Assembly: GCA_032358255.1 (NCBI GenBank)
Contig: JAULBX010018525.1
Location: 1 to 64,000, forward strand
DNA length: 64,000 bases
Direction: 5' to 3'
Source: Heterotrichella gracilis
Lineage: Eukaryota > Sar > Xanthophyceae > Tribonematales > Xanthonemataceae
Shown here one piece after another: positions 1 to 58,800 of the stretch. Under the pieces are notes generated by a model. That model saw only the letters and a list, made by a program, of their open reading frames with translations, was not told where the DNA came from and ran no database searches. The position numbers were made by a program, and so were the translations under genes. The first letter of the stretch is position 1, and the number at the start of each line of letters is the position of its first letter.

Positions 1-75
1 TAATGTAATGTAATGTAATGTAATGTAATGTAATGTAATGTAATGTAATGTAATGTAATGTAATGTAATGTAATG
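1..75. repeat. TAATG pentanucleotide microsatellite
   Basis: About fifteen uninterrupted copies of the five-base unit TAATG open the window. The tract lies upstream of the first visible exon of the CAP-domain gene, so it is probably inside one of that gene's introns. The array may extend beyond the window edge. Confidence 0.97.
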
Positions 76-23190: not shown

Positions 23191-26100
23191 CTATTGCACT
23201 GGCGCATGACAACTGGTATGGGAGCAGGGTATCAGTATGCCACACACCCACCAGGCACACCCTGCTCTGCAACCCCATTGCGCAGCGGCAAGCCTTCTCA
23301 AACTGTAGGGTTTTATTTTAGGGTTTAAGGTTTCCCCACGCACCAGGCACACCCTGCTCTGCAGCCACATTGCGCAAGGGCACGCGTTCTCAAACTGCTC
23401 CAGCGGCAGCAATGTGAGGCAGCACAGCCCTTCACGCCAGCTAGGCCCCCCACCCGCCTTGCCAGCATCCTCGTTGGGGGTTCCCGCATCACCATCTCCT
23501 GAAGGCATGCAGGGGCAGCGCCATTGAGACTGGTGGCATGGCGACCCAACAATTCCACTAACAAGCAAGGCCGCTTGCATAAACGCATCGCCGCTGTCAT
23601 GCCGTTGGGATGCAAGCAACCAACACAAGCAAGTAACCTTACAGCCTCTGCGCCTGCATGACGCCCCACAGCCATCACCCTGCCGTAGCCAGACGGTCCA
23701 CACACAATCCACACACACCTCACCCCATCCCACACACACCCCACACACCTGCCGCTGCCGCCGCCTCCACGCGCGCCTGCTGCGCCACCGCCATCATGCT
23801 GCTGAAGCCATCAACCGCAGAAGGGGACAGGCGCCCCAGGGCAGGCCAGATGACACTGGCCAGCTCCAGGCCATCTGGAGGCAGAGGTATAGGGTTTCGG
23901 GCTTGAAATGTGTGGTTTCAGGGTGTAGGGTGTAGGGCAGGCCAGATGACACTGGCCAGCCCTATGCCGTCGACAGGCAGGTATGTAGGATTTTGAGCGC
24001 AAGCTGCTTGAGGTATTTGATGCAAGCTGTGCAAGACTTCCACACATGCCGCATGCACCACCTCTGCCACAGGCCCACCATCCCCCCTCCCTCTTTCCAA
24101 TTCAACCACCCGCCACCACCACCCAACCACCCCCACCCACCTGCCCCGTTGCGCCCCGACCACGCCAACGCACACCGCTGCTGCATCACATTGAACTCCG
24201 CCATCTGGCTGCCCAAATCGTAGCGAGCAGCGGCAGCCTCAAGCACACAGGCCACAAACTGCACATTGCCTAGCGCGGTGATGTAGCGTGCCAGTCGGGG
24301 CTCCTTTGAGACCAGGTCAGCTGCCCCTGCGCCCACCACCTGGCGCCAGAAGGCGCGGCCGGCCTCCAGCTCCTTGCAGCACACCTGTAGGGGATGGGTT
24401 GAATGGGATAGGATGGGATTAGGTTACTCACCATCTGCGCTGCCCTTGCTGCCCTACGATGTTCATCATAGCACCTCCCCAGATCTGGTAGGGTCCATCA
24501 CACGCAAACCTCGGCGGATTCGCTAGGTACAAATCCCCACCCACGCCTCAACCAAACTTTGCCACCCATCTGCATCAGCTTCGCTCATGTGGCTCCAGAT
24601 AAAATGCATGTAACTTGACACGACAACCCCACATCATCACAAAAAACCCTTCAAGGTCAGCCATGCACCCACCTCCATCAGCTTCATCACGGTTTCGGTG
24701 TGCGAATGGACGGTGGTGTCGGAAATGCTGATGCGCCCCATGTGCTGCTTCCCAGCTGCGCCATCGGGCTGCATCATCACAACTGAGCGCTTGCCGGGGG
24801 GTCCCCGGAATGCCGCCAATTTCTTGAAATCCACCTTGGTACCCCCAGCGGACATGATCAGGAGGCCACTCTGGGGTGGATGGGGTGCCGTGGAGGTGGG
24901 TGGGGCGGGTGCTGGTGGAAGGTGGAAGGCGCCGTTGGTGGTGGGTGCGGAAGGGGGCAGGGCGGCTGCGTCGGCTGCCTCAAAATCGCCAAAGTCATCC
25001 GTCTCAGATGCCCCTGGAAAAGGGAGGCGCGCGTTCATCATTGTTGGTACAGGGCAAGCCATGCGAATCAGTGTGCATTAAAAGAATGGACATGTTCCTG
25101 CATGTGCCAAAATGCAAGAGAGGGACATGTCCCCTGAGAGGTTTAACAAGGCACGTCACCCAATGCATCGTCAGTGTGCATTCTGGCACCAAGCAGGACA
25201 CCACAATGCCATGTCCCTTTTTAAGGATAAGTGCCAAATTTCGAATATCGACACAGCCCACGTGTTTGTGAAAAAGCAGGTAGTCAATGAATTGGTACCA
25301 CCGCAGTGCCACAAAGTCGCACCTGCTGCTTCGGCCCCCTCTGTATCTCTTGCCTCAGCACCCCCCCTTTCCTCCCCTAGTGCCGCCTCCTGCTGGGAGC
25401 TGCTCCCCTTGGCAGCAACACTCACAGAGAACTCCAGGGGGGCATCCTCAAGCTCCGTGTCCTCATCCCCAAAAATGCCCAGATTTAGGGGGCCCGCAGC
25501 ACCCACCCCAAAGGCCGGAGGCTCTGACGAGGCCACGTCTGGAGGACATGGAAGATGGGGAATCAGGGTCACCATAACAAAATGGAGTTTGGAAAGTCAC
25601 ATTGATGTGGATGAACATGACTGAATACTATCCAAAGAGGAAAACTGCACCTAAGGAGGCGTGGAATGGCAAGGACCAAGTTAAAAATAGACCAGTAGAT
25701 GGGTGCAGGAACAAGGCAAGCAACAAAGCAGGAGACAGTTGCAAAAGCAGGCTCACCAGTGTCTCCATTGGCAAAGACCGCCTCAAAAGTGGTGGTGCTT
25801 TGGTGTGATGTGGTGGCTGGACCCGCCCCCTCCTCAAATGCGGCAAATTCCACCACAATTTCTTGGTCCTGTGTGGGCTGGGCGCTGGCAAAGTCACCAA
25901 AATCTGCCCCGAAGTCTGCATCAAAGCTGTCTGGCACACCCGGCTGAGCCACGAGGAGCAGCATGGGATCGGTAAGAGGGGCGGATGCTGCAGTGGGCAG
26001 CGGGTTAGGCGGCTGATGTGGCGCCGGCTCTGGTATGGAGGCAGTGTATGCGGCAAATGTCCCAAATGTAAGGGGTGCGGTGCCAGCACTTGAGGTGCTC

Positions 26101-30888: not shown

Positions 30889-33800
30889 ATGGCTTACAGC
30901 GCTAAGAGGGCTGGCCCAGTCATGGTGGTGAGGCTGTGCATGTGCACCACCTTTCCTGCAATAATTTGGACCCTTTGTTGCAAAATGTAGTCCAGGGGGA
31001 AATCTGGTATGACCTTTAAGGCACCTAGCCCAAAGAGAAATTTACCAGCTCTAGACTTTGTCATTCTCTTCCAAAACCCTACTGAGAGGTAGTGGCAAAA
31101 AGGCAGAATCCCTGTCGGCTATCTGGGGTGTCCTGCAGCAGGCTGCGGCGTTTAGGGTTTAGCGTGCAGGGTGTAGGGTTCAATTTTCTGCAAGCGCTGC
31201 ATGGCAATGCTGCTGTTTACAATTTACTTTGCAAGTAAACATGTCTGCCAGTCATCGAAGACCCTAGTTAATCCTATGCAGTGTTCTAGGGTTTAGGTTT
31301 CAAGGTAGTACACCCTAAACCCTAAATTCTAAAGCACGTATTGAAAGACTTGCACAAGCCGTGTCAGGTCTGCTTGGCATGTGTACAAGTCGTCCCGCTG
31401 ATAAAGTAAGCAACGCAATTGGTGAAAGGAGGTACCTGAGGAGGTTTTGCCAACTTGCAGGAGGAGTCGAGGGCGGACAATGCTGGCGCCATGAGAAACG
31501 CTCCCAATGCCAAATGGTCAATGAACCAAAACATGGGCAGCAACACCAGCATGACCAGCAGCAACGGCGCCACAGTGGGGCAAGACACCCGCACCTCCTC
31601 CTTGGAAATGGAGCAACCATCCCAGCCATCCAGCCAGACCTACAACGACTCGGCAGCGTCCTCCCCAGCCCTGCGGCAGCCTTATTTGTCTCAGGACAAG
31701 CCCCCCGCCAAGTCTGGCAAGCCAGTAAAAATCCCCACCACCAAAGCTGACGCCTCTACATTCCCGCCAGCTGAGGCGGAGGCAGATGCCGCTCCGCAGC
31801 AGCAGCAGGGTGTACAGAATGGCCAGGCGCCTGCCTCAGGAGAGGGCGAGGTAATGTTATGGCAATGTAGAGGGGGGGAATATGTAAGGATGATGTGATC
31901 GGCATGTTGTGTTACCATGGTGCAGCATCATTCTGCACTTCATCATTAGGGCTAAGGGAGACTATCATTACACGTACCCTGCAAGGCGTGTAAATGGTTC
32001 AAATCATCAGCAGGATCACAGGTGTCTCCTTCAGGAGAGGGTAAGGTAATGTTGCAGCATTATTTCAGTGGCCTAGAAGGTTGCGTTGCTATCAGCATAC
32101 ACCTCATTAAGGCAGCACTTGATCATTGGGGTCCATGGGGACCAAGGGAGACTATCCACCTTTCTCCCTGGTGAACTACATCTAATCAGCAGGAAGCAAA
32201 GAAGACTTGTTTAATGGCTGTTTCTTCCTCCCATTGACGTATTTGGCATAAACCTGAGAAGGAGACCAGGAATTCATTGACGCTCATTTATTAAATGTCT
32301 GATCTGGATTGGTCTAGGTGCTGACCCATGACCCCGACTCCAAGGAGACCACCGCATCAGGCTGGCACTATACTTTTATTTTTACCTTTACGCACCTATA
32401 ATTGCCATGCTGAAAAATGGCTTATATCAGTAAATTCCTTAAATCGGTGCAGGTGTTGACCCACGACCCCGACTCAAAGGAGACCACTGCATATAAGGCT
32501 CGAATTAGTAAATGGTGGTCATATATTTAGTGCTTTCTATATTTTGGCTGCAGGTGCTGACCCACGACCCCGACTCCAAGGAGACCACCGCATAAAAGGC
32601 TTAAAATCAGTAAATGGCACTCAATTACCAAATGCCTTTATGCTATATTTTGGCTGCAGGTGCTGACCCACGACCCGGACTCCAAGGAGACCACCGCATC
32701 AGGCCTGGCTCAGAAGAAGGACATCGACAAGGAGTGGCTCAAGAAACTGGTGATACTGCTGTGGCCCCACATCAGGGCGGCCTCGGAGAAGATGGCGTGG
32801 GGCATGCTGCCCGACATGCTGAACGCCACCAAGCCCAAGTGGATGAAGGCGCTGGAGCTGCACAAGTGAGGCCCTCTGGCAGTGCACATGTCATGCATAT
32901 TAGCTCCTTAAGTGCCCTAGTACGAGATGTAGGGATAGCCTTTCTGCCACTACGGTGTAGATACCAAACCCACAAAATCAGTTCACATGCATCTACACCA
33001 TTGTATAGTTTAGATGCATGTGATTTGATTTTGTGGGTTTGGTATCATAAGATGGCAGGGAATGCTGCCTGTTGTGCTGAATGCACCGAAGCCCAAGTGG
33101 TTAAAGGCGCTGCAGCTGTACAAGTTATGTGCACGTGCTGGGAGGTTTTGCGTGGTCACCTTGCTCCATGCTGCCATCAAAGGGGTAGTAAAAGTACATA
33201 TCATTGGAAATTTTATAGGCTAGCCGCAGCTGCGTTGGAAAAGTTGGTGTAGTGGATGCTGCACCCAACATGTTCAAGGCAACCAAGGGCGTCCAAGGAC
33301 TGTACCATTTTTTACCATTATACCTATTTCGGCTGTTCATGACAACCCATTGATTTACCTTGCGCGCGGACTCATCCTGCCTCCATACATTGGAAAGGCA
33401 TGCACATGATTACTGCTCCCTCCCTCCCCACCCTGCAGCTACCAGCTGGATATCATGCGCATGGCCTGCTGAACCCTACATCTAAACCCTAATGCTGAAC
33501 CCTAAACCCCCAACGCCACGCCTGCAGGTTTGAGCTGGGCACCATCCCTCCCCGCGTGAGTGACGTCATTGTGTTCAAGGATGACAGCATCTTTGAGGAG
33601 GTCATCCTGGATGTGGATGTGGAGTGGAAGGGCAACGCAGACATTGAGATGATTGTCTCCCCCTTGCCCGATGAGCTCAGGCTGGTGCCTGGGTTTGTGG
33701 AAACCTGGCTGCAGAAGCTGACCACCGTGAGGGTAGGTGTTTACTCAAAAACCCTGAATAGCTGCGACCTCAAACCATAAGTATTAGCATGGCAGCGTGT

Positions 33801-36800
33801 TTTGAGGTGATTTGTCATGTGGATGTGTATCCATAGCATCCACGTCCATACCACATGGATTTGAGACCATTGCATCCACTCGAGTGGAAGGCAACTCAAG
33901 ACATTGAGGTGTGGGTCTCTCAGGTTGGCAATGTTGTTCTAGCTGTGGCTGTTCAAAACAGCCCTTCATGATGCAGTTGACAAGTGATTAAATCTTGTTT
34001 ATATCTTGTTTATATCATGATTTTCTAACGTTTCTTTGTACACGGTAGATTGGGGTTGAGGATCTGATGTTGGCTGCCCGCGTGCGCATTGGCATGGCCC
34101 CCTTGTTGGATGACCTCCCCGTGGTTGGCGCACTCAAGGTGGGTGGAAAATATGCAACTCTAAAACCCCATCCCTAAACCCTCCTGGGAGGTAACAGATG
34201 CGATCTGGGATGGGCGGGTCTGCAATGCAACTAAAGAGCGGGTAAATAATATCCGGATACTAGCGGAGATAAAATGGGGAGCACGAAAGTGGCATGACTG
34301 GTTGGCCACCATCTGCCACACTGGAAACAGTGTCAGTTAAGCCTTGGCTCTAGGACTGGGGTGAGGCATACCCAGACATGCTAACCTGGCCTCAAAACTG
34401 GAAAGCAAATACTTACTTACTTACTTACTTACTAGCGGAGATCCGAGTGCGTTTTGGTAGGGCCCACTGGTGATGCTGCATGCACGAGAGGTGGGTGGGA
34501 GCGGAATGCGGTGCAGGTCCCAGTGTTGTGGTATTATGTGCGGACTGCCTTTCGACAAACTTTGGTAATGGAGTGCTTCTTAAAAAGTCAAGGCATGTGC
34601 AGTGTGTGCCTGCACCTATTGCACCGCAAGAAATGGCTGGTTAGCCTTTCTGAGCATCTGGCTCGGCATGGAAGTATGCAGTTGCAGACGTGATAACTTG
34701 AGCACACACAGTTTCGCAGCTTCAGACCATCAGGCTGGTGCAAGATCTTACCATTGGGCTCTGCTTTCATGTATTACAGGGCCTGCAGATCTCAGGGCTG
34801 GAGCAGCCCATGCGCCTGGGCTTCAAAATGTAAATTGACATAAAACTCACATGAAATAAAGCAAAAAGGGAGGATGTAAGCTTACCATTGTGCTGTGTTT
34901 CGCCTGCAGATCTCCCTACTGGAGCAGCCCATGAAACTTGACTTCAAAATCACGCTGGGCAACTCCAACCTGCCTCTGTCACCTGCCTTGGAGTCGTGGA
35001 TGCACAACTTCATCAAGGAGAACATACTGGCCACATACCTGCTCCCAGAGAAGTATGTGTACAAGATCGATCCGGTAAGTGGTGATGAAGTGCTTAGGTT
35101 GAGTGGGTTTATGTGGTACAGTATATGATGTTTGCATTGCTGCTAAGTGCCATTTCGCTTTCAAGGGGTGGTGTCTGAGAATGGAAACAGCAAAAATGCA
35201 TCTAGATGTGCAGATGCATTCCGTGTTCTACATGACTCCTCAACTGTCTAACCAGATGGGTGGTGACACACTGTGCAGAACGCAGAGGTTCTGGACCCTC
35301 CCGAGGGTTTGCTGGAGGTGGAGATAATAGAGGCAAAGAACCTGCCCAGCACTGACTGGATGGCCAAGCCGTCGCCCTATGTCGAGTATGTGTGCTTAGA
35401 CTGTAGATGTTCACACCATTGGTGTCTACACGCATATGTATGACGCACAATGGGTTGCACCAGAACCTTCTTGCAGCGTTTTGAACACGTGCAGAAGGCG
35501 AGTGTTGCCACTCTTTTCTTGCCCAGGCTGTATGCGCGCCTGGGTAAGCGCACCACCCACATTGCATATGGCTATAATTCAACTTGATTCTGAGAAAAGC
35601 CTACCTTCACATGCGACAATTTGTTCTTCTTGCGATGTTATGTTTACTTCTGCCATGCGCACCCTGTATCTGCTTAATGTTTCTTGTCCAGCTGTGGTGA
35701 CAACTGCAACTCTTGTTTCTTTGCCCAGGCTGTACGTGCGCCCACTGGATAAGCGCACCACCCACATCGCCCAAGGCTACAAGCCGCAGTGGTCCACCAA
35801 GTACAACCTGCCCGTCCACGTGCGCAAGCATCAGTCCCTGAGCATCCACCTGTACGACGAGGACAAGTTCTCAGCGGATGATGAAATCGGCAGGTAGGGA
35901 CTGCAGTTTTGGAAGTTGTCAGTTTGGTGGTTTCCTCTTACCAACAGCTTGGTACTTGTTCTTGAGTGATGAATAGAAAACTCCAAATTTCACTTGCACG
36001 TGCTGATCCTTGACCCGCCATCTGGCGAGGCGCAGAGGCGCATTCACCTCTGAATCAACCCCTTACAACAAAACAAACCTGCTGGATCCCAACGCCTGTA
36101 TCCCATGCACACACAGGGCGCACATCGAGCTCTCCTCCTTGCCCGATGGCCGCACCAAGGACATGTGGCTGGACCTGGACCCGCCATCTGGCGAGGCCCA
36201 GGGGCGCATCGATGAGGAGGAGAAGCACATGAAGCACAGGCAGAAGGCAGTGGTTAAGGCAGCTAAATTTGTGAGCCGCCAACCGGATCCCAGGAAGAAG
36301 CAGACCCAGGTCCACCTCAGGGTACGGCTTGATGGAAAAGGAGTAAAAGGAATTTACCTTTGACAGCATTGAAATGGCCAAATAAGATTGCATGAAATGT
36401 GTGTTGTCCTTGCTGTCGATGGATCAAGAGTAGACGCCCACGGCACATGGCGGTGGGTAAAGCCACAAAGTGACAACTTGTGACTCATGTGACAAACCCA
36501 ATGACACGGATTCTAAGAAATGTTAAAGTTTCTGGCTTGCCTAATACCTTTTGTTACCTCGCCCTTCCCCGCAACTACCTAGGCTAGCTTTGGAGGTCAA
36601 GTGCCCCCCAAAGGCCCCTCCTCCCTTTTCTTGCAGGTGCGCTAGACCCTGTTCAGGGTATGGGAACACCTGAATGCTGCTGCTTGCTGCCCTCCCCTCC
36701 ACTCCTAACGCCCTCCCTACACGCTAATGCGTTGACACTCAGTCCTCTTAGCAATTAGTACCCCCGGCATCCTTGATAGTTGTTACCCATTAGTCATCAG

Positions 36801-39460
36801 TCCCCCCCTCAGTCCCCCTTGGTAAGCAGATTAGTGCTTGTTTTCTTCTTTTTTTCTGTCGATGTCCCCGAGTCCATCTTCCAGAATATTTGTCAGGTGG
36901 ACAGCCGTTGCTAGGTGTGTAATCGTCATTTGACGGGTATTACACACTTATCAACGATTTGACGACCTGACAAATCTTGTGAAAGATCGACTCGGGAGCA
37001 TGGACAGAAAATCCACGACCCTACGCCGGAATGCTGTGGAAAGAATTATCCCGTATGTATTTGCGTAGGAAATGAATCATGTTTTGGCGATGACAACATC
37101 TGCAACCCTGCTGCCCGCCATGCACCAGCCCCAGGGGTCCAATACCTGCACCCCACATCCCAAGTTCCTTGACCTCAGCTCCCATTTTTAAAGCAGTAAA
37201 CCCTGTTCAAGGACAGACCACGAATATATGTGTGTAGGAAAAAAAAATGCACACAAGAAGAGCTCTTGTTTTGTTCTCAAATGCAGGTGCGCTACACCCA
37301 GTTTGGTGATGACGACATCCGCACGCTGCTGCGTGCCATGCGCCAGCCCCCGGGAGCCGATGCACGCACCACTGGCAAGCCTCAGTTGGATGCCCTCCTC
37401 AAGATGGGCAAGGTGGAGGTCAGGGCGATCGCTGTGGAGGGGACGAGGAAGGGGTCCTGGTGGCGGCATGGGGCGTCATCCTCACTGTGAGTACTAATTT
37501 TGGGCATTTTTCCAGTGTGGTAATGTAGGGGTTCAGGTGGTTTGTAATGTGGTCAGTGTGGGATGCGGGTTGTGGGTGGGTGGGGCTGGAAGGTGGTGGT
37601 AGCTTGCCGCCCGATGGTTGGTGCTTGCGCAGTTTGCAATACGATGGCCGGGGGAGGGGTGAGGAGGGGTCACGGGGGCACCATGCAGGGCGACAGGTTT
37701 GGGGCACGCTGTAGTGTTGTGGATGGGAGGTAGGAGGCAGTACCTGGTGCCTAATCATGTACCAGTGGGGCACAAAGGAAAGCAACTGGCTGTGTTCCGC
37801 AGCAAGCTTGATGTTGTCAGTCTTTGTGCGCTGCTAACAGTGTGTATCTACATGTTGTACAGGCAGTGCAAGGTGGTTATTGGGGATGAAACCAAGTGGA
37901 ACACAGCAGTGACACCCACCAGGAAGCAGCCTGTCAAGTTTGACAAAGATGAGGCGCTGGTGGTGCGTCCCTAAACCCTAAATCTTGAACTCTAATACCC
38001 TCAAAGGATAGTGTCCGGGTCACCGCTCGCTATACCAGACAGCTAGGGTGTAGGGTTTTAGGGTATGGGGTTAAGGGTAGAAGCATGAGGCCACAGCCAA
38101 GTTTGTAACCTGCTTGGCTCCACGTTTGTTGAAGTAACCTGCCCATTTGTATTTGAATCAGCTTCAGCACACCATGGGGTGTTATTGCAAGAGGGTTGCA
38201 CACATTCATACCAGGCTTAAATTGGAACCTCAGCCAATTTAATAGCCCTGGTACGAAGGTGTGCAAGCCTCTTGCAATTGCACCCAAAAGTGGCACTGAA
38301 GCCATGAAATGGATGGGGTACTCGAACACACATATAGAGGTTACCAATTAAAGGGAGATCGCTTGCCCCAGATGCCATGTATGGACAAGCATCCTAATTG
38401 AATTGGAACTGCATAATGTGACAGTGCCACTGGCAGTGCTGCATGTGCTGGCAATGCGCTAGGGACAGGGTTTTGGGTTTAGGGTTTAGGGGCTCTTCTT
38501 TTAAACATCTCAATGTGTGCTGTGTGCAGTTTGGAGTGAGTGACGATGAGGCTAATCATGGTGACCTGGCAGTGATCGAGCTGTGGGACACGCACTGGGT
38601 CAACGAGATGCTGGTGAGTGTTACGCTACCTACTAGACCCTACATTGCTTGGCCCAGCGCCAGGTGAAGGGTGACATGTGCACAGTCAAATTGGATGAAT
38701 CTCCCAGGTGGTACCCTTAATTGATACTCTCATAGTTAGTTAGTTAGGTACATGCATTCCAGCAAAATAGCCAGATTAGCAGTCAGTCTTGCACATGCGG
38801 CGCCATGCAGCTCTTTCCTGGCACTGTTTGAACCATCTATTGATCCCACGCGACTTGAGGTCCTGCTGGAGTAGGTCAGCCCACGTGGCCCTAGGATTAC
38901 CTACCCCCTTTGCCCCCTCTACCCTACCAAACACCATACAGTTAGGAGCCGATCGTCTGATAAACGTCCTAAATGTCCCAACCAGGTTTTTCAAAATAAT
39001 TGTTTAAGGGCTCTGTGTGGGGTTTCAAGGTTGGTGCACACCCCTATCTCCGTTCTCCTTAGGAAGTGTGGGCATCAAAGCATAAGTGACAAACTCAGGG
39101 ACATTAGGCTAAGCTGATACTCTCATGAAGTGACAAAACTGGGAATCTGCAGGGTAAAGTGGAGCTGTGCATGGGTACTAAGTTGAAAGTTAACCCTAAA
39201 TCCCAAACCCTAAAACCTGATCCATGGGTGCAATCTGCAGGGCCGAGTGGAGCTGCGCATGTCCGACACCCAGTCTGAAACTCAACCCTAAACCCTAAAC
39301 CCTACATTCTAATGTGCAGGGCCGCGTGGAGCTGCGCATGTCCGACATCCTCCAGCGCCGCTGCATCGAGAAGGCTTTCCCCCTCGAAGCCGAGGGAGGG
39401 GGCCGCACAGGCGGCCAGCTCAAGCTGTCGGTCAAGTGGGTTAACATTCTGGCAACATAA
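30889..39460 (+). CDS. Extended synaptotagmin-like SMP-C2-C2 protein
   Basis: Exons: 30889-30927 (tentative start), 31461-31850, 32660-32865, 33528-33732, 34049-34138, 34910-35074, 35279-35385, 35729-35893, 36117-36321, 37287-37486, 37863-37962, 38530-38613, 39320-39460 (TAA). All phases agree; about 698 aa. Residues ~165-365 are an SMP lipid-transfer domain: KEWLKKLVILLWPHI, FELGTIPPRVSDV, VDVEWKGNADIEM, LAARVRIGMAPLL, EQPMKLDFKITLGN, then NFIKENILATYLLPEKYV. C2A follows (LLEVEIIEAKNLPSTDW to HLYDEDKFSADDEIG). Its first loop has PSPYVE in place of the usual SDPYV, so calcium binding may be weakened. A second C2 (GKVEVRAIAVEG to VELRMSDIL, then GQLKLSVKWV) ends the protein. Extended synaptotagmins and plant SYTs tether ER to plasma membrane and move lipid. 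Here the N-terminus is Ser/Gln/Ala-rich and I see no membrane anchor; a missed first exon is possible. Confidence 0.86.
31308..31330. repeat. CCCTAAA tract upstream of SMP-C2 exon 2
   Basis: Three CCCTAAA-type units (CACCCTAAACCCTAAATTC) lie in the presumed first intron. Just upstream, at about 31150-31180 and 31286-31300, the opposite-strand form TTTAGGGTTTAG/TAGGGTT occurs. Confidence 0.7.
32319..32700 (+). repeat. Tandem copies of an exon 5' edge with its acceptor
   Basis: Four copies of the segment GTGCTGACCCACGACCC(C/G)GACT and onwards to GAGACCACCGCAT start at 32319, 32453, 32554 and 32660. Spacings are 134, 101 and 106 bases. The last copy continues into the real SMP exon. The third and fourth also share the preceding intron end TATATTTTGGCTGCAG, so acceptor sites are copied too. 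Copies 2 and 3 run into TAA or a frame change soon after the copied part. Confidence 0.93.
32960..33046. other. Near-perfect 36-bp foldback hairpin in an intron
   Basis: The left arm 32960-32995 (starts GATACCAAACCCACAAAATC) is the reverse complement of the right arm 33011-33046 with only two mismatches, around a loop of about 15 bases. It sits in the intron after the first SMP exon. The size is that of a plant-like pre-miRNA or a minimal foldback element. No transcript evidence is available from sequence alone. Confidence 0.85.
33049..33135 (+). repeat. Decayed copy of SMP exon 3' end with donor
   Basis: This intronic segment resembles 32788-32872, the end of the exon before it: AGATGGC, ATGCTGCC, TGCTGAA, AAGCCCAAGTGG, AAGGCGCTG. 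and the lysine codon region. It is interrupted by changes and lacks the good donor, so it is read as a pseudo-copy. Confidence 0.75.
34271..34430. mobile_element. Short retroposed insertion with ACTT tail and 12-bp TSD
   Basis: An approximately 160-bp insert is flanked by the exact 12-base direct repeat ACTAGCGGAGAT (34259-34270 and about 34431-34442) and ends in (ACTT)5. Simple-repeat tails and target-site duplications of this length are typical of LINE-mobilised sequences. It contains no open frame I can assign, so it may be a 5'-truncated LINE end or a SINE. It lies in an intron of the SMP-C2 gene. Confidence 0.75.
34782..34832 (+). repeat. Decayed copy of the exon start at 34910
   Basis: The segment GCCTGCAGATCTC, GGAGCAGCCCATG and CTTCAAAAT repeats the acceptor and first 40 bases of the exon at 34910-35074, about 120 bases upstream of it, and then meets a stop. 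It is one of many exon-edge copies in this gene. Confidence 0.85.
35521..35577 (+). repeat. Decayed copy of the exon start at 35729
   Basis: TTGCCCAGGCTGTATGCGCG, GGTAAGCGCACCACCCACAT and GGCTAT copy the acceptor and the first ~45 bases of the C2A exon beginning at 35729. The copy contains a GTAAGC donor, so it could act as a cryptic mini-exon. Confidence 0.85.
37081..37135 (+). repeat. Decayed copy of the exon start at 37287
   Basis: TTTTGGCGATGACAACATCT, GCAACCCTGCTGCC and GCCATGCACCAGCCCC match the coding start of the exon at 37287 at roughly four bases in five. A second fragment at about 36636-36652 repeats TGCAGGTGCGCTA and the bases after it. Confidence 0.8.
38161..38302. other. Long imperfect foldback hairpin in an intron
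   Basis: Left arm 38161-38225 and right arm about 38233-38302 are complementary over roughly 65 bases, with shared blocks CTTCAG, TTGCAAGAGG, TTGCACAC, TACCAGG and AATTGG (read against the reverse complement). The loop is very short. It sits between the exons at 37863 and 38530 of the SMP-C2 gene. It could be a small-RNA precursor or a miniature inverted-repeat element; no clear target-site duplication was found. Confidence 0.8.
38732..39115 (-). mobile_element. 5'-truncated LINE fragment (3' end), intronic
   Basis: Read on the minus strand the insert encodes the C-terminal tail typical of non-LTR retrotransposon ORF2 proteins: a Gly-rich lead, ATWADLLQQDLKSRG, then INRWFKQCQERAAWRRM and a stop. 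It ends in a (TAAC)n-type tail at 38732-38745. A direct repeat TGATACTCTCAT flanks the insert (about 38720-38731 and 39116-39127), so it is a genuine insertion. A second copy at 50851-51057 is nearly identical in the shared part. Confidence 0.85.
39150..39305 (+). repeat. Two exon-start copies separated by CCCTAAA tracts
   Basis: The start of the last SMP-C2 exon (39320: GCAGGGCCGCGTGGAGCTGC) is preceded by two copies, at about 39150 (GCAGGGTAAAGTGGAGCTGT) and at about 39237 (GCAGGGCCGAGTGGAGCTGC, extending through GCGCATGTCCGACA). CCCTAAA-type heptamers follow each copy. The second copy is nearly perfect for 30 bases and so looks recent. Confidence 0.9.
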
Positions 39461-40965: not shown

Positions 40966-45767
<4,802 letters not shown>

Positions 45768-46873: not shown

Positions 46874-47133
46874 ACTATGAATCATAGCGGCTAACGACCT
46901 TGGGCATGCGCAAGAGGTTCCGAGAGGTGCACACCTGATCTGCTCCTATGCATGCATGCGTAACTCCAGGACACCGTAACCTCGCAGACAAGCCTATATC
47001 CGCCAGAAAGTTCTGGGTTGTTTGTGACGTGTATCCAGTTCTCGCAGCAGGCGCCTTGCTGTGCCCTAGTTTTAGCAGGTCTATTTGAAACTGTGCTGTA
47101 CTCGAGCCCTCTTCAGGACGTTCGCACTAACCA

Positions 47134-48387
47134 ATGGCTGCCACGACAACGACACGCTGCACTGGAACCCTGCCAGCCCGGCTGGGATGCGCCACTACTT
47201 GCAAGCACAGCGCTCTGCGCTGCAAAGCTCCTATCTCAGTGGCCTCCGGCGCCTTTTTTTTGTCACCACCATTGACAGCCATGAGTAGGCGAGCTGTGCT
47301 TGCAAGAAGTGGTGTATCCCGGCGCCTCCAGCTGGTGCCAATGGCACAGAGGTAAGCTTACTTGAGCTTGTTTTGTAAGCTGAACGACAGTGAGTTTTAC
47401 TAAACCAATTAGCGTACGCTGAGCCTTGCTTTTGCAGTCAGGTGCCTTACACTTTATGAGGTGCAGCGATGGCATGAACAGCGTCAGGACAGGGTCGGTG
47501 GTGCACAGCATACAGTGCATGCTGTATGATACCGAGCTGCCTGCAAACGTGGCTGCACTGGTGCACAGGAGTGTGCAAACTTCAACTGGACTCACCCACA
47601 CACCTTAGCCCTGGCAGTGCACATCACCCGCCCTTCCACCCACCCAGTGCCCCTGCCATGTCACTATCTGTGACCATAAAAACCCTAAACTGTGGGCTGT
47701 GCTACTTGCAGGTTTGGCAGGCAGGCGACAGCTGAGGAGCATGACACAGCGGCTGACCTCCGCAGGTCTGTCGAGTTCGCTAGAACCCTAGATTCTAAAC
47801 CCTAGAAACCCTAAACCCTAAAGTCTGGAGAGCTGCCCTCCGCAGGGCTGCCGAGTTCGCCAGGGCTAGGGAGGAGATGTCTGTGGAGTTCTCCAGATTG
47901 ATTGCCAAGATTGACGGGGTCGGCATTCAGGTGGCGGGCCTTAGGGACGGGGCCACGCAGCTCAAGACTGGGGTGCAAGGTGTGAAATCACAAGTGGTTA
48001 AGGTCCATGTGGGGCTGAAGGAGGTGCAGAGGCATCAGGGAGTGATGCAGGAAACCCTGGAGGAGGTGCAGACGACGCAGGGAGTGATGCAGCACAGCCT
48101 GTCGTCAGTTGATTCGGCACTAGACGAGCTCCTGCGAAGGTACTGTCCCACCCTGTGGTGTTGAGCTGGTGGGCACATTCTGGCGATATGCATGCAGTGC
48201 CTCTGGTGTGATAGGGTGGATGGGGTGGCTCCCTGCAATAGTAGTGGTGCATGCTGGGCATGCTTGCCTGGGAAGCTGCTCAAGAGTACAGACATTGATC
48301 TGTAGCAGCAATAAGCATCAGCACTAAACACACTGGTGGGCAGCGCTGACCAGCACATTGTCTCTGTGTAGGAGCGGGGGGACATGA
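47134..48387 (+). CDS. Small coiled-coil protein, possibly organelle-targeted
   Basis: Exons 47134-47351, 47712-47765, 47846-48139 and 48372-48387 join in phase to 193 aa. The first ~65 residues (MAATTTTRCTGTLPARLG, with many Ser/Ala/Arg and few acids) look like an organelle-targeting sequence. The third exon encodes a heptad-rich helix (FARAREEMSVEFSRLIAKID, then KEVQRHQGVMQETLEEVQ and LSSVDSALDELLRR), in which the HQGVMQETLEEVQ block is followed by a similar TQGVMQHSLSSV block. I recognise no family; DUF1640-type mitochondrial coiled-coil proteins are one possibility, unproven. Intron 2 (47766-47845) is only 80 bases and is a telomeric tract between two copies of the splice-site region. The terminal exon is tiny and its placement is uncertain. 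AATAAA occurs at 48583-48588. Confidence 0.68.
47752..47865 (+). repeat. Intron flanked by exon-segment duplication around CCCTAAA tract
   Basis: The first copy, about 47752-47784, runs across the donor (GCTGACCTCCGCAG|GTCTGT then CGAGTTCGCTAG). The second, about 47832-47864, runs across the acceptor (GCTGCCCTCCGCAG|GGCTGC then CGAGTTCGCCAG). They match at about 28 of 33 positions, with the splice point at the same place in each. Between them is a tract of CCCTAAA/CCCTAGA units (47784-47823). Confidence 0.92.
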
Positions 48388-49815: not shown

Positions 49816-52800
49816 TTACCCCCTGCTGAAACCCCGCGCCTGCCCCCCCATCTGCGCCTCCCTCATGTCCTCCTGCCCCCGCTTGACCCGCTCAACCAGC
49901 GCTGCAATCTGGCTGTCCTTGCCTATGCGCAGCACCTCCCAGGCCTTGAGCATGCGGCTCAGCTCGGCCACCTCGCGGCAGCGCTTGTCAAGCTGATGGC
50001 GCAGGGACTGGGCCTGCGGGGGGTGGGACTTGTCGGTGGTTAGGATTCACGACGCCCTGAAACCCTTAACAGTCCAGCGCATGGACTGGGCCTGCAGGGG
50101 TTGGGGAGCAGGTGGTGGTGAGGACCAATTGTTGGGATTTGTAAAGCCCTGTTACCCCACACCCTGAACCCAACAGTCCAGCTGGTTGCGGAGGGACTGG
50201 GCATGCGAGATCGGGTGATGATGATGGCGGTTGGGTGTGTGTCGCAGCAAGGTGAGCCGGATTTGATGTATCTTAACACTACACACTCCAGGTGCTTGCG
50301 CATGCACTGGGTCCACCACCACCAATGATCGTCCCCGCCAACCCTACCCACCTCATGCCTGGCTGCCCTCAGCTCCTGCTCCTGCACATAGCTAGCCCCA
50401 ACCTGTGCACGCGCAAGCTGCAGGCGCAGGGCGTCTGCCTCTCCACAGGCCTGGCGGGCGGCGGCGCGGGCGGCATCAACCAGGTGCGCCTATGGGAGGG
50501 GGCGGGGATAAGGATGGGTATGCTCTGTGCATCTGTGTGTGTGGGTGTGGGTTGCGTAGTATCAAAGACGCGCACTGGATACGCGGGGTGCGCATGTGAT
50601 CCCTCTGAGGGTGAAGCATTCTGCTCTTGCCTGCCTCTGATGACATGCAATGAGATGCGATGGCAGGCACTGATGTGAGATGACTAGAAGTGATCTGCAA
50701 TGAAAGGCATGAAGCCATTGCGCAGCCCCCATCCCCACCACGCCCTTCCCAGTGCACCGGGAAGAAAACTGAACCCGCCATATGAGACCTCAACACAACA
50801 TGCGGGCAATGTAGCTTCCCTTGTTAACTCCTTTCACCCCCTCACTCCCCCTATGGTGTTTGGTAGGGTAGAGGGGGCAAAGGGGGTAGGTAAGCCTTGG
50901 GCCACGTGGGCTGACCTACTCCAGCAGGACCTCAAGTCGCGTGGGATTAATAGATGGTTCAAACAGTGCCAGGAAAGAGCTGCGTGGCGCCGCATGTGCA
51001 AGACTGACTGCTAATCTGGCTATTTTGCTGGAATGCATGTAACTAACTAACTAACTAACCCCCTCACTCCCCCCCCCCCCCCTATCCACCCCAACCTGGT
51101 CCTGTGCCGCGCCCCCCACCCTCCTCAGCTCCCCCTCCAGCGCCCCGCAGCGCTGCACAGCCGCAGCCAGCTCAGCACGCACCCCCAGGCAGGCCTGAGA
51201 CTCGCTTGCCAGCTGGGTGGAGGCGGCCTCGGCAGCGGAATGCGCGGCGGCCTGGCGGGACTGCGCGTCAGCCAGCTCAACCTGGGGCAGGGCCAAATGT
51301 GGGGTCAACCTTTGGTGCATTTATTTTGGTTTTTTACTTTCATTATTTACATTATTTGGGACTGCGCGTCGGCCAGCTCAACCTGGGGCGTGGCCAATCT
51401 GGGTGAATGTGTGAAGCCAATCCCTGGTGCTGAGTCCACTTTGGGTCAACCTTTATGGCATAAGACCTGGGATAATATACATTCAGGAACGCTTGTCTTG
51501 GATAATTTTGTTTTCAAATTTTGGCGTGGCCCCACAGATACAACCCCCCCCCCTCACTCCCCCCCCAGTACCCACCTCCAGCGTGCGAAGCTTGGCCCCC
51601 GCCAGCCCCAGCCTCTCATCCCCTTGCGCCACCTCAGCAGCAAGCACCTGCGCCCTCAGCTGTGCCTGGCTGGCACTCGCCCCCAGCTCCACCACCTGCA
51701 GCGCCACCCAATCCACCAGCTCCCGCAGGGCGAGGGGGGAGGAGGGGGGCGAGGAAAGGGGGGTGGGGCCATGGGGCGAGTGTGGGGCGCTGGTCTGTGG
51801 CAAGGGGGGAGGGGGTGGTGGGTGAGGGGTGGCTGCACATCGGCATTTTTGTGGGCTTGAAAACCACAGGACAGGGGTGCACGACATGGGCGTAATCGGT
51901 GGATGCACTGGGACTGGGACAAGCATGGGACTGGTCATGTATCCACCATCAGGCCATGAATGGTAGGTTTGTGCCTCAGGGTTTATGCCTTAGGGTTTAA
52001 AGCTTTTACAACATGACCCTACCTGCAGGCTGTGCACCCTGCGCAGCACGCCTGCTGCGTACTGCACCTGCCCCTGCGCCTCCTCCAGTGCCTGCCGCAG
52101 CTCGGAAGCATGCTGCACCGCCACTCGCCGATCAGCACCCGCCTCGCCAACCTGAAACACGCACAGCGGGGTGTCAGACACACGTAAACATAGAGCAACT
52201 TGCCAGGATGCAGCCCATGGCTGGCACCATCCCCACCTACCCCTCATCTGTTGTGGAGGCCTGTACGGGTTGGTCCCCCACCCCCCACCCCCCCCGCCTT
52301 CCACCCCATCTGTCTGCATTAATTACTAGATTTAGTACTTTCTTATTACCAAATTTAATACTTATTTGTATATTACTATCATGTACCGTAGGTCATTTGA
52401 TATTTAATTGATCTTATTTACTGATTTTGAACAGATCGAACCCCACCTGTCTTTGCAGCGCCTGCACATGGCCCTGCACCTCCCCCAGCTGCTGCTCGTG
52501 CGCCTGCACCACCCCTGCCAGCGAGGTGGTCAGGTGGGCAACCTGGTCAGCCAGCAGCGGGTCCAGGCCAAGGACGTCCTTGCCAGCAAGGACCTGCAGG
52601 CACAGGGGAGGGTGGCAATAAGTGTCAGCGGTTTTCTTTCAATTTTGTTTTGGTAATTGTACCGTGCATGGTTGAAACAAGATCAGCCAGGACCTGCAGG
52701 CACGGTGGGAATGTGACCAGGTATGCTTCTTTTTTTAATTAGGAGGGTTATCAGGTGTCTAATTATGCGCCTGAACTGGTCCCAGAAGACCAGATCGACA

Positions 52801-55800
52801 GTTAGCCATGCACCAAAGGCACCAAGCAGTCGAGAACTTTCACATCCACACTCCAACAAAGAATATGGTATGAAAACATGTGCGGTACCGTCACCCACTT
52901 ACCCTGCGAACCTAATGACCCTACCCTCCTACCTGCAGAATGTCCTGCAGTCCCCCGCCCCCCACTCCTCCCAGCCCCTCCACCGCAGCCGCCAGCACCC
53001 GCGCGGCACCAGCCACCTTGGCCTCCAGGTCAGCGGTGCGCTGCTGCGCCTCAATGGCACCCATGCGCAGGGAACCCAGCTCAGCAGTACTTTCTGCGTG
53101 CTCGGCCTGCAGGATGGGGTTGGGATTGGGGTATGGTTGAATGAAGGTCAAGGGATGCGTTCCCTGCCTGTATTTTAGGGTGAGAGCAGCTGCTTGGCGG
53201 TTGTTTTTTAGTGGGTTAGGTTTTTCTCACCAGCTGCCTCCCAGCATGAGCAGCGCCTCGCCATGCATCACAGCTTCCACTCCCCCATCCAACTCCTCCC
53301 ACCCCAAAGAGTGTGCATCCCCGCCCCCCACCTGCAGCGCCTCGTGCTGCTGACTCAGCTCCCAGTACCCTAACTCTAAACCCTAAACCCACCTGCAGCG
53401 CCTCGTGCTGCTGACTCAGCTCCCAGTACCCTAACTCTAAACCCTAAACCCACCTGCAGCGTCTCGTGCTGCTGACTCAGCTCCCTGTACCGCCTGCTCA
53501 GCCGCTGCAGGGCAGTCTGCGCAAGCCCCGCCACGCGGGCAGTGCCCTCATCTACGTCTCGTTGTAATGCCGCCACCTGGCGCTTCCCCTCCTCCGTTGC
53601 CTGCTGCGCAGCCTCCAGCTCGCGTTCCAGGGCCGCCACCTGGCATTGGCTCTCTGCCAGTGCTGCCGTGTCCTGCTGTAGGGCCGCCACCTGGCGCTGG
53701 CTGTCGGAGACCGCCATGTGGGCGGTTTCCAACTCGCGTTCCAGAGCCGCCACCTGGCAGTGGCCGTCCTCCGCTGCCTGCTGGGCCGCCTCCAGCTGGC
53801 GCTGTAGGTCCGCCACCTGGCGCTCGCTGCTTGCCATCGCATCTTGGAGCACGGCGAGGGCTGGTGGGGTGGTGGACGCAGCGGCTGCCAGTTGCTGTAG
53901 ATGTAAGCACAGGGGTCAGCACACTAGTGTGCTCATTATTTTGCATATTTTATTGTGTGCGTATTTGAGCATGACGACGTTTGACAACCTTGTGCAAATT
54001 GGTTTCAGGAGGGAAGACCAGCGGAGGGTTGGTGGTTTTAGAATGTGTTGTTTAGGTTTCCGCTGTGTACCTTTACCTGCTGTAGCTCCTCCCCAGCCAG
54101 CACTGCCGCCTGCAGCCGCACAGCCACGCTCCGATGCTCATCGCGCGCCTGAGCACAAGCAATATAAAGTGGATTAAATTGTAATACATCATCTTGTACT
54201 GGCATTCACTTCATTTCGTGAACATTCTGTGACCGGTGTGGGGGCTTACACATGGCGAGATGGGCAAGGGCGGAGCACAGCTGCGACACAGATATTTGGC
54301 TATGGGAGGCGTGCTGTGACCAGAGATGGGCGTGGGTGAGTAAGCTGTGCAATCCCCACAAGGGCAGTGCGCCAGTCCCCAAGCACTGCCCAAATCTTCA
54401 ATGTTCGGTATTGGGGATCACCCGCCAATCCCCACCTGTCCTAGCCTGTCCTGCAGCTCCAGTATGTGCCCGTCCTTGTCAGCGCACGCGCTGCGCCAGA
54501 TGTCAATCACGTGGTCAACGCTGGACAGAAGACTCGAGGGGCCGCCCTCCCCAGCCTCACTCAGGCGGCGCTGCGTGCGGATGGTGGCCTGGACCTAGCC
54601 AAGAATGGGAGGGGGGGTAAAATAATGGAGATACTACTCATTGCTTTTCCCCTAAATTTCTACATTTTTCTTCTTTCTTCATCAGCATGCTAGGCCCCCG
54701 CTGATTACACATTTGACACACAATGGGTTGTGTAACCTGCAATGTCCTGTCCTCATACCCTCCGCCTCCACCACCACCAGGCATGCATCCCCCACCAGAG
54801 CGCCCCCCCCCCTTTTTACCTGCATGTTGAGTGAGTCTATGCGCTCCTCCCTTGCCTCCACAGCCTGATGGGCGGCCTCCAGGCGGGCGCTGCAGCGGCG
54901 CAGGTCGGAGGAGGAGGCATCAAGCTGAGCGGTGCGAGCCTGCGAGGAATAGAGAAACACACTTAGGGGAACGCGGTTGGCAGCTGTGAGGGAGAGCCAG
55001 GGTGTCAGGGTGAATAGGTAGAGGGATGGCAAAATGAAAAGAAAAGGGGAACACATGTTTAGGGCGATGTACGCCTGCGCTCCCCATGAAACCGTGTAAG
55101 CAAATACTTACAGTCGCCAAAACCCTACATCCAAAGCCCCAATCCCCTAACACACCTGCAGGTCCTCCTGAGCCCCCGCCAGCTGGCGCCTTGCCTCCAG
55201 CGCCTGCTGCCTCGCCTCCTCCAGTGCCTGCTGCAGCCCTGCGCACTGTTCCGCCTGGCGCTGCAGCCGCTCCCCCAGCAGCCGCACCGCCTGGGGTGGC
55301 GCCACATCCAGGGGAATACCCTCTAGGGTAAGTAGGGGATGGAGGTGGTGGAAATCTACCGTGGTGGTGGTGGTGGTGGGTGGATCACCGGCTGTGGCTG
55401 TGGCTGACGCCAGTTGGCGCTGGAGGGTTTTGCATGTGGCGGTGGAGGCCGCCAGCTCAGCGTGGAGCTGTTCCACCTGGCGCTGATAGTGTGCCACGTC
55501 AGCGCCCGCCTGGTCGGCAGGGTGGGGATTGGATGTGGGGGTGCATGGGGAGGGTCTGGCGCATGACTCGGAGCCGCTGCGGGTGGGGTGTGGCGGCTGC
55601 GCAGGGCCTGGATCCTGGCTGGTGGGAGGTGGTGGTGAGGTGGTGGCGGTGGCAGTGCGGCGGGGAGTGCACAGGGGCTCTCCTGCAGACCCGCAAGCCG
55701 ATGCGCCATCATCCATATCACCCTCATCCTGCACACCATTCATGGATTCAAATCTGAAATAATCAAGGCAGAAATCGAGGCTGGAAGCACCTGTTTCGCC

Positions 55801-58800
55801 CCAACCCTCAATGAAAACAAGAACAACCCCCCAATCTATTGCCGCATCCAGTTGCCCAAGGGACCCAGAAGATTTTACAAAACTAGGTGAAAGCCCTGCT
55901 CCTCCCCCCTTCACCCCTTCACCATTGCCAGGCCACACCCTATCCAGACTCCGTCTCCCCGCCCTCGCTACCCCACCCACCCACCCACCTCCTGGCACTC
56001 GAAAGCCTGGTGCACCAGCACCAGCTCCGCCTGGCTGTGCTCCAGCCTTAGGGCCAGGCTGGCGGCGGTGGACGATGCCGCCTCGCACTGCGCCATCTTG
56101 AGCCCCAGCTCCTGCACCAGCATGGCCTCCTGCTCACGCAGCCGCGCAATTTCCTTGGTCATGGCGCTGTAGCTCAGCTTGGCGCTGCGGGGTGCAGGGT
56201 TTACTTTAGGGTTTTGGTGCAGGGTGTCGGGTTTGGCAGTCGCGCAATCTCCTTGGTCATGGCGCCGTAGCTCAGCTTGGCGCTGCGGGTGGTGGGTGGT
56301 TCACCTTAAGTATTGTTGGTGTAGGGTGTAGAGTTTGGCAGGCGTGCTATCTCCCTGACCATGGCGCCGTAGCTCAGCTTGGCGCTGCGGCGGTGCGGGT
56401 GGGCAGGATAGGGTTTTGATGAAGGGTGCATGTTGATGCATGATGACGTCGTCCAGCTTGGCGCTGGGAGGGTAGTTTCTTTGGCTGAAGGGTGTGGGGG
56501 TTTAGAGCGTCAGCCATGTATCAGCCATTGATCAGCCAGCTGCAAATGGCGACCCAGCAGCAACAACACCCCCACCCAGCAACAACAACACCCCCCACAA
56601 CCCACCATATACTCCCCCCTCCCACCCCCTACTCCCACACCCACCTGGACTGGCTCCCCTCCGCCTCCTCAGTCCCCACTTCCCCTTGCCGCTCAGGGCT
56701 GCCTTGAGACTCCTCCTGCACAGGGGACAGAACAAGGCTTAGGGTTAAGGGTAGATGGTGAAGGATGGTAGGGCTGCGGAGTAGGGCTTTAGGGTTCAAG
56801 GTGCGCATGGCCCTCACCTCCTGTAGCTTGTCCCCCGCCTCAGTCAATTGCTGGCAGGCAGTGGTGAGGCGCCCCGTCACACTGGCCAACACCATGTCTT
56901 GGCTTTTAGGGTTTAAAATATATAGGGTTTCAGGGCTTCGGACTAGGGTTTCAAAATGTGTGCGTGGCCCTCACCTCCTGGAGCTTGTCCTCTGCTTCTG
57001 TCAAATGCTGCCGGGCAGCGGTGAGGCGCCCCGTCACACTGGTCAACACTGGGTCTAGGGTGTTAGTTGTTTAGGGTTTTGGGTTGAAAGTTTCGGGTAT
57101 AGTGTTTTTATACTCCCTGTCACACTGGTCAACACTGGGTCTAGGGTCTTAGGGTTTTTAAAGTTTTGGGTTTTAGAGTTACTAATATCCAGGGTTTTAG
57201 GAGCTTCAGGGCTTCCAGGTAGCGCGTGGCCCTCACCTCCTGGAGCTTGTCCTCTGCTTCTGTCAGCTGCTGCCGGGCAGCGGTGAGGCGCCCCGTCACA
57301 CTGGCCAGCCGCTCCTTCAGCAGCGCCACGCATTGCTGGAGCTCGTCAGCTTCGGTCTCGGCTAGCCTGCAGGGACAAATGCAAGGGGCTATTAATATGG
57401 GAATGGTCATATATAAGTAATTATATATAGTATTACCGAAGGTGTACTGTTAAGGTGCAGGCAGATAACAATATATCATTATAATGGAGTGAAATAAGAT
57501 GGGCTTCGAATCCATTGTAGATGCCCATTAGGGTGAATGTTTTAACCCCCCTTAATTACATCATATCGCTACTGACCATCCATTCTATACCTCCAGGCTG
57601 TTGTTGCCCAGGCATGGCGCAAGGGGCTGTGCCGAACAACAAAGCTATGCCATAACTTCCCCGGTGGATAGTTGCATGGGGAAGTTGGCCCAGCTGATCA
57701 CAGTTTCAATCTATCGTATGGAACGGATAGATGCGGACGCCAGGTGAAAAGCACGTCAAAACAGTGTGAGCGGTTGGGATCTTTCACCCAATTCTATGCG
57801 ACCCCTAAGCCCTGGCCTCTCCTCCCTGCCCTGCCTCACCTCCCCGATTTCGACATTGCCTGCTCAAACACCTCGATGGCGGTGGACATCTTCTCAACCG
57901 CCTGCCGCCGCCATCGACCTGTAGCGCACGGATACAGGTCACATTTTCTTTGATAAGAGATAAAATCGGATTAAAAATTGGATATGAAAAGCAAATAACA
58001 GTTTCAAACAGTCCAAGCACGCACCAACAGTAGGAGGCTCCTGTGGTGCAGGCGCCGCCCCTGGCGTAGTCAAAGCCTGGCTCGTTCCAGGGGAGCCATC
58101 ATAGACATCACCTCCAGGGGAGGTCACACCCGCGATAGGGCTTTGTGCACCCCGCACCTCCTCCTCTGCTGCCACCTGGCGCTGCACAGAAACAAATGCA
58201 TGCGTGGTTAATGAAAGCACACGAAAAAAAGTATAAAAACATGAAAAAAATTGAAAGTACAAAAGTTACAAAGCACAAAAGCATAAGAACCCTACGTGAC
58301 TAGCAGGGAAAATGCGCAGCCTAAAGGTGACAGAAAGTACAATGACAGGTGCCTTGCCTTAGGACGGAATGCGCTCATTGGCGTGGGCATTGCCACGTCA
58401 GCGACGGGGGTGATGGGTGGGGACAGGGTGTGGCGCGTGGCCTGGGAGGGAGGGGAGGGCACCGTCACCGCCGCTGCTGCTGCCGCCTGTGCACCCGCGG
58501 TGGGTTTTTGCGCCGGGGCTGCGCTGGTGGCGCTGTCATGTGGACCTGCCAGGCTCTGGAGACACTTGCCTGGGTGGGTTTGGTGGCCAAGGGCGTCTTG
58601 GCAGGCAAACTGCACCTGCTGTTGGAGCTGGAACAGCAAAAAGTAGACATGAGGAATTGCCTATTTTTTTGAGAAGATTGCAGCCTGTCATTAAAAGATT
58701 TTCTGTGGTAAAGGAAGGAAATTTTGCAACGAGGAGGGCAATACCCTCCTGTTTACTCTTACCCCCTACCCCATCACCCTACCGTTCCCCTTACCTGGCA

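Follow-up and report, generated by a model that had tools for sequence, protein, structure and literature searches.

Copies of exon edges, about half with telomeric filler, in introns of a 64-kb stretch of Heterotrichella gracilis DNA

Introduction

Break-repair interstitial telomeric sequences are short internal tracts of telomeric repeats, sometimes flanked by a direct target duplication, which is attributed to staggered breaks. In mammals, telomeric repeats were inserted at breaks with a target duplication in 4.5-16% of loci (4.6% in rodents, 16% in primates, 4.5% in horse), and the intronic location of the human sequences is compatible with random insertion (PMC2246262, PMC7215372). Here we analysed 64,000 nucleotides from Heterotrichella gracilis (contig JAULBX010018525.1, positions 1 to 64,000; the whole stretch is called the window), in which introns carry copies of the edge of the neighbouring exon. 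Unlike the sequences described above, the telomeric tracts of the window, which are presumably interstitial, cluster at splice junctions, and duplications of exon edges are frequent. All results come from this single window.

Some described routes of intron gain are similar to this pattern. In Daphnia, introns gained through staggered double-strand breaks contain direct repeats of the end of the neighbouring exon, and repeated internal breaks lengthen introns (PMC4202315). These repeats are 4-17 bp long and the text has no word beginning with "telomer", whereas the copies in the window are 25-95 bp long and half have telomeric filler. Direct repeats of 4-30 bp close to intron borders have also been described, in an article that twice uses a word beginning with "telomer" (PMC11782384). 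Tandem duplication and break repair are both reviewed as intron-gain routes in another article; in the former a duplication covers a splice-like site, which is the layout of one predicted intron in the window (47766-47845), plus filler (PMC3443670). In contrast, the ends of the other introns do not match in register, and no intron was visibly created there.

Introners resemble the pattern of the window in being new DNA within introns that has target duplications on its flanks. An introner family was rejected as a candidate, as an all-by-all comparison of the 71 introns (tracts masked) shows no shared family; the only matches between introns were among neighbouring introns of one gene (P2) and at a dispersed repeat of 206 bp that two introns share. 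In plants, patch-mediated tandem duplications reportedly arise from adjacent nicks, as is said of work by Schiml in 2016 and Vaughn in 2014. In rice, insertions stem from tandem duplications more often than from any other source; these duplications are enriched at 50-200 bp and ascribed to adjacent nicks (PMC7971508). They resemble the copies of the window in size range and direct orientation, but no tie to exon edges or telomeric filler is described in the part of that paper at hand. Plant telo boxes are not enriched in introns (PMC3022908) and the heptamer telomere type is given as ancestral to green algae (PMC8226300).

The ingredients are therefore known singly, and to our knowledge the combination of long edge duplications, telomeric filler and junction preference is apparently undescribed. 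The initial annotation of the window knew of no named system with such a signature. The pattern was not found among the top-ranked matches of a literature search on telomeric repeats in introns, at splice sites and in green algae, a search that covered mostly open-access papers.

Results

Introns carry copies of their exon edges

The window is eukaryotic, intron-rich DNA containing plant-type telomeric heptamers. Gene models were obtained with a self-trained hidden Markov model (HMM) and hand editing, keeping strongly coding exons, which gave 71 introns and 142 exon edges. Each edge was compared with its own intron, with telomeric tracts masked and a cut-off score of 16. A copy was found at 18 of the 142 edges (13 acceptor, 5 donor), that is in 16 of the 71 introns. 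Only 0.02 were expected from 8576 comparisons of edges with introns of other genes, among which the maximum score was 16. The junctions were edited by hand, and at four of them (35729, 51096, 53106 and 56184) the editor already knew of copies. The third exon of gene D was removed from the model owing to a stop, and two models are uncertain: exon 55985-56184, whose phase conflicts with the next exons and which contains stops, and intron 56185-57236, which encloses a predicted exon (56645-56715).

The initial annotation had reported exon-edge copies in at least fifteen introns of five genes and had proposed to align exon edges with their flanking introns. Run within the window, this alignment confirmed that the copies are real, and the numbers of introns and genes were roughly correct. 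A local direct duplication lies within about 20 bp of each position at which the annotation had placed a clear example (23839, 32319, 34782, 35521, 37081, 39237, 41615, 41880, 45265, 51356, 53330, 56256 and 56813), with four copies, exon included, at 32319. A duplication was also found at 33049, where it had seen a badly decayed copy. When the window was compared with itself over distances up to 2 kb, 41 direct and 8 inverted pairs were obtained, the inverted ones being mostly hairpins; after a complexity filter, 24 and 1 were left.

The copies are clustered and not uniform over genes. They occur in 6 of 11 introns of an SMP/C2-domain gene at 31-39 kb (Pfam C2, E=1.7e-20; the SMP match, at 23.9 bits, is under its cut-off) and in 4 of 10 introns of an FGGY carbohydrate kinase gene at 41-46 kb (Pfam FGGY_C, E=1.1e-11; FGGY_N slightly under cut-off), which together makes 10 of 21. 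Other models have copies in 1/6, 3/6, 1/1 and 1/1 introns. No copies were detected by the edge test in P2 (0/13 introns), two genes of the CAP type (0/6), the models at 58-63 kb (0/11) and four small models (0/6). A search for older, decayed copies at the remaining 118 edges was unconvincing (mean percentile 0.543, z 1.6, Kolmogorov-Smirnov p 0.02; 18 edges in the top and 17 in the bottom decile). An assembly artefact was considered and is unlikely, as 29 of 30 copy pairs differ and the sole identical pair is 53330/53391 (61-bp units within 53327-53448).

The copies include splice-site regions and decay neutrally

We catalogued 30 copy pairs at 22 loci (Table 1), after a 31st pair (57237d_3-4, 47% identity) was discarded as false. 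The copies are 25-95 bp long and 78-100% identical (median 88%), with spacers of 24-181 bp. This spread of ages agrees with the description in the initial annotation, from identical to badly decayed. Among the 18 counted copies, 15 cross the junction and thus include the splice-site region. They comprise between 10 and 77 bases of exon plus 2-15 of intron, where the alignment was limited to 15; with a repeat finder, up to about 20 intron bases were seen in the arrays at 32643-32699 and 57217-57328.

In 29 exon-copy comparisons, mismatches amounted to 12.2, 8.2 and 19.0% at codon positions 1, 2 and 3, and to 16.9% (46/272) in the intron part. This pattern is expected when the intronic copy drifts freely, the exon changes mainly at third positions and the intron parts change on both sides. 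Our results showed that the copies drift neutrally while the exon stays constrained. We infer that they are not exons in use and that their mean age is about 8% on the neutral scale.

The spacer is unlike either flank, and so represents new filler, in 13 of the 30 pairs (22 of 30 with telomeric bases masked). The clearest copy-filler-copy layouts are at 23245-23397, 23838-23993 and 43698-43798, and this anatomy is the layout of a filler-healed staggered break. In the multi-copy arrays, later rounds may often have duplicated a unit of edge plus filler in tandem, for which the identical 61-bp units at 53327-53448 are the best example; we read the order as insertion first and tandem repetition afterwards.

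Telomeric tracts are concentrated at splice junctions

The window has 54 telomere-like tracts, compared with 3-8 in each of five dinucleotide shuffles, and rotations of the heptamer make up 7 of the 25 most over-represented 7-mers. Per kb, introns contain 10.9 heptamers, unannotated DNA 4.2 and exons 0.6. Heptamer density peaks at 27-28 per kb within 0-40 bp past donors and at 20-30 per kb 20-60 bp upstream of acceptors, while the other 20-bp bins to 240 bp have 0.7-14 per kb, except for 19.4 at 100-120 bp from acceptors. Of the 34 intronic tracts, 16 are no more than 25 bp away from a splice junction, against 5.8 expected (0 of 5000 permutations reached this). The crowding at junctions and the higher density in introns than in unannotated DNA are not what random tract placement would give. 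A telomeric tract also occupies 16 of the 30 inter-copy spacers, with 3.0 expected (0/5000 permutations, run on 31 spacers).

As a loose control, 22 viral loci with three exact telomeric units were inspected, and none of their tracts had a direct duplication on its flanks that reached score 16. The viral contigs L001, L003, L005, L011, L014 and L017 each contain 7-17 TTTAGGG/CCCTAAA-like tracts over 6-14 kb, with no flanking duplications. A scan of bacterial and archaeal genomes and viral contigs for a donor-plus-telomere pattern recovered no related locus; its sole match was an 11-unit telomere-like array on a contig from Bacteroidia, in which the reading frames are long and bacterial.

The junction preference is not explained by detection bias

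In 60-bp windows at exon edges, 49 of 279 had direct and 0 of 279 inverted matches, compared with 22 direct and 19 inverted matches among 1051 unannotated windows; the edge counts include the whole-exon repeats of P2, a different phenomenon that accounts for 7 of 25 edge clusters. Simulated noncoding pairs of equal ages were detected with a probability of 0.83. A two-way scan found duplications confined to noncoding DNA at only 8 loci, versus about 104 expected at the exon-edge rate, an expectation that assumes uniform rates and an estimated target size. By eye, two of the 8 look low-complexity. Excluded from this number were a stretch within the 32660 array and the tandem of P2 (13063/12718). 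Because such duplications are scarce and would mostly have been detected, decay or detection bias fails to explain the pattern. The junction preference is real within the window. Purifying selection alone cannot be expected to yield it, since duplications in noncoding DNA should be tolerated at least equally.

A candidate newborn intron

The predicted intron 47766-47845 (80 bp) has matching 28-base stretches at its donor and acceptor, with offset 0 and a score of 21.4 against a null maximum of 20.4. Of its interior, 43 bases are telomeric, and reading through it by hand gives an in-frame stop. It is the only one of the 71 introns with a significant in-register end match. Judged from its sequence, it looks as if made wholly by duplication plus telomeric filler, and we consider it a candidate new intron.

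Table 1. Exon-edge copies and related loci in the window
Feature	Span	Strand	Details
Donor-type pair	23245..23397	-	61-bp copies 23245-23305 and 23337-23397; 31-bp filler, 28/31 bp telomeric; 88.5% identity; exon outside the counted gene models, donor type judged by eye
Acceptor-type copy 23934-23993 of edge 23874	23838..23993	-	36-bp filler, 36/36 bp telomeric
Donor-type copy 32019-32053 of exon end 31850	31824..32053	+	82.9% identity, 35 bp; spacer non-telomeric
Acceptor-type array, three intronic copies of exon 32660 start	32301..32699	+	Neighbours 86-98% identical; spacers non-telomeric
Donor-type decayed copy 33049-33125 of exon end 32865	32789..33125	+	Edge test and pair list
Acceptor-type copy of exon 34910 start	34781..34950	+	81.6% identity, 49 bp
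Acceptor-type copy of exon 35729 start	35506..35782	+	Self-comparison and pair list
Copy of exon 36117 interior (+52 to +93), in upstream intron	36002..36209	+	88.1% identity, 42 bp; no visible junction span; outside the 18 counted
Copy of exon 37287 from +16, in upstream intron	37083..37370	+	79.7% identity, 70 bp
Acceptor-type array, two intronic copies of exon 39320 start	39144..39350	+	Telomeric fillers 39192-39218 and 39281-39312
Acceptor-type copy of exon 41712 start	41617..41758	+	Self-comparison and pair list
Copy of exon 42071 start, in upstream intron	41886..42169	+	Self-comparison and pair list
Exon end 43734, donor, filler, degenerate exon-end copy	43698..43798	+	26-bp filler, 25/26 bp telomeric; copy scores 17 under looser scoring, under the strict edge-test cut
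Degenerate copy of exon 45120 start (from +8)	45043..45157	+	Telomeric tract 44997-45035 immediately upstream
Donor-type array, two copies of exon end 45209	45184..45373	+	Telomeric fillers 45221-45240 and 45314-45334
Candidate new intron 47766-47845	47748..47864	+	Both ends within a direct duplication that is in register with the donor and the acceptor; 43-bp telomeric core
Acceptor-type array, two copies of edge 50013	49999..50216	-	Spacers degenerate telomeric
Acceptor-type copy of edge 51281	51257..51397	-	92.5% identity, 40 bp; spacer non-telomeric
Acceptor-type copy of edge 52593	52584..52708	-	88% identity, 25 bp
Donor-type array: exon end 53454, donor and telomeric filler, repeated	53327..53491	-	61-bp units 53327-53387 and 53388-53448 identical; filler of pair 53391-53488 24/24 bp telomeric
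Acceptor-type array, two copies of edge 56184	56138..56402	-	Telomeric fillers; neighbours 94.2% and 88.5% identical
Donor-type array, copies of exon end 57237	56798..57328	-	Degenerate telomeric fillers; intron model 56185-57236 uncertain

Other features of the window

Three further intronic or unannotated stretches match nearby exon DNA (33882-33919, 23644-23691 and 37642-37695, with scores of 20.0, 19.4 and 16.4). They are possibly additional decayed copies and were left out of the counts. Imperfect hairpins, possibly MITE-like, occur at 32960-33046, 36852-37011, 38177-38285, 40581-40807 and 48606-48782; by eye, the one at 36852-37011 may split an older copy of the edge of exon 37287, with a fragment near 36633.

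The 206-bp dispersed repeat mentioned above (38733-38938 and about 50852-51057, 97.6% identical) lies in introns of two genes beside GTTA-type simple repeats and is a young dispersed repeat, possibly a short interspersed element (SINE). A stretch at 42490-42620 contains, by eye, GGTTCGAATCC, which we take to resemble a tRNA B box, so that it is possibly another SINE. Two AT-rich palindromic clusters (ATAACGTTATATAAC) lie about 500 bp apart in unannotated DNA (46281-46337 and 46790-46848), and an array of the pentamer TAATG opens the window (1-75).

Gene P2 contains, at 12398-13686, four similar tandem exons of 120-135 bp with partly similar introns and a single reading frame, which is an exon-level tandem duplication. 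Two neighbouring genes at 233-1561 and 6865-9345 are similar to each other, and the second, at 7-9 kb, has a Pfam-supported CAP (cysteine-rich secretory) domain. The minus-strand gene or genes at 50-63 kb are long and coiled-coil-like. A Pfam search with two pieces of the 23-28 kb gene matched no family, and a search of the window for known RNA families gave nothing above the gathering score.

Discussion

The explanation that we favour, by a slight lean only, begins with breaks with long staggers, or paired nicks, arising beside exon-intron junctions. Telomeric repeats would be added to one end, probably by telomerase; both overhangs would then be filled in and the ends joined, giving an exon edge, telomeric filler and the exon edge again. 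The product would be a target duplication of about 25-95 bp, whose intronic copy could drift neutrally because it would be spliced away within the intron. Some units would subsequently be repeated in tandem. Occasionally the duplicated site may supply both a donor and an acceptor, so that a new intron is born. Break repair with local re-copying and telomeric filler had already been suggested in the initial annotation. It best fits the anatomy (fillers of which 28/31, 24/24 and 36/36 bp are telomeric), the spread of ages and the small number of noncoding duplications, but accounts less well for non-telomeric spacers and for later rounds, which are often tandem-like.

Several results weigh against this explanation. 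Gene models totalling 36 introns have no copy at all. No telomeric tract is present in 14 of the 30 spacers, and the earlier statement that many copies abut CCCTAAA/TTTAGGG holds for about half of them. With telomeric bases left in, 17 of the 30 spacers are similar to a flank (8 of 30 when these bases are masked), which indicates that some rounds were tandem duplication and not fresh insertion. Three of the 18 counted copies (37083, 41886 and 45043) begin within the exon with no visible junction span, and the copy 36002-36043 derives from an exon interior, a poor fit to simple target duplication. The orientation of tracts in gene sense is 23 CCCTAAA versus 11 TTTAGGG, which is not significant (P=0.058). 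A direct flank test on the 54 tracts was weak. Of the 34 intronic tracts, 4 reached p<0.01 and 11 reached p<0.05; of the 19 in unannotated DNA, 1 and 3 did so, and for inverted flanks the number was 0 of 54. The weakness is due in part to the many copies within the intron null, and at several loci a duplication around the tract is clear. Finally, the junction preference implies an unexplained source of breaks at splice sites. It is unlikely, though conceivable, that an exon-targeted process which is still going on breaks DNA at splice junctions, perhaps because pairing of spliced RNA with its gene leaves the intron DNA as a loop and the junction open to nucleases; telomerase would heal the breaks, and telomeric repeats and exon-edge copies would be the material from which introns are lengthened and now and then created.

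Plain short tandem duplication over the edges, of the adjacent-nick or slippage type, with pre-existing telomeric tracts as nucleating fragile sites, is the rival to be taken most seriously, and we still regard it as rather improbable. The flank-like spacers agree with it, among them the identical 61-bp units at 53327-53448, and so does rice, where insertions are highly enriched in tandem duplications of 50-200 bp (PMC7971508). However, the 13 pairs with a new spacer do not, and one would expect many such duplications in unannotated DNA and inside introns as well, yet the noncoding-only loci number just 8. Templated repair, in which intron breaks are patched from nearby exon DNA or its transcript, telomeric filler is captured and exons are favoured templates, seems to us quite unlikely. 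It would account for copies that begin inside the exon (36002, 37083 and 45043), for intron matches to exon-internal sequence (33882-33919 and 23644-23691) and for exons being the source far more than introns. But 15 of 18 copies cross the junction with 2-15 intron bases, so mature mRNA was not the template, and the copies sit in the adjacent intron, only nearby DNA having been searched.

Under selection instead of mutation, telomeric motifs would be kept preferentially because they act as splicing signals, for example as branch points, and the copies would be kept as reserve splice sites. Branch points usually lie 20-60 bp upstream of acceptors; heptamers peak at this distance, and CCCTAAA contains CTAAA. 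We nevertheless think this very improbable, as the copies decay neutrally. No clear branch-point motif was seen in 49 tract-free introns, nor any clear replacement of CTRAY by telomeric motifs. We give even less credit to detection bias, by which ubiquitous duplications are recognised only when one copy is constrained, or coding repeats are modelled as introns. The exon side is indeed constrained and the models come from an HMM with hand editing, but this account is disfavoured by the simulated detection probability of 0.83 and by Pfam support for the two copy-richest genes, SMP/C2 and the FGGY kinase.

The origin of new intron sequence is an old question. Fresh, datable duplications with filler would allow the rate, the choice of target and the effect on splicing to be measured directly. 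The pattern would tie telomeric repair to gene structure, and it may reveal a way in which some introns lengthen or arise.

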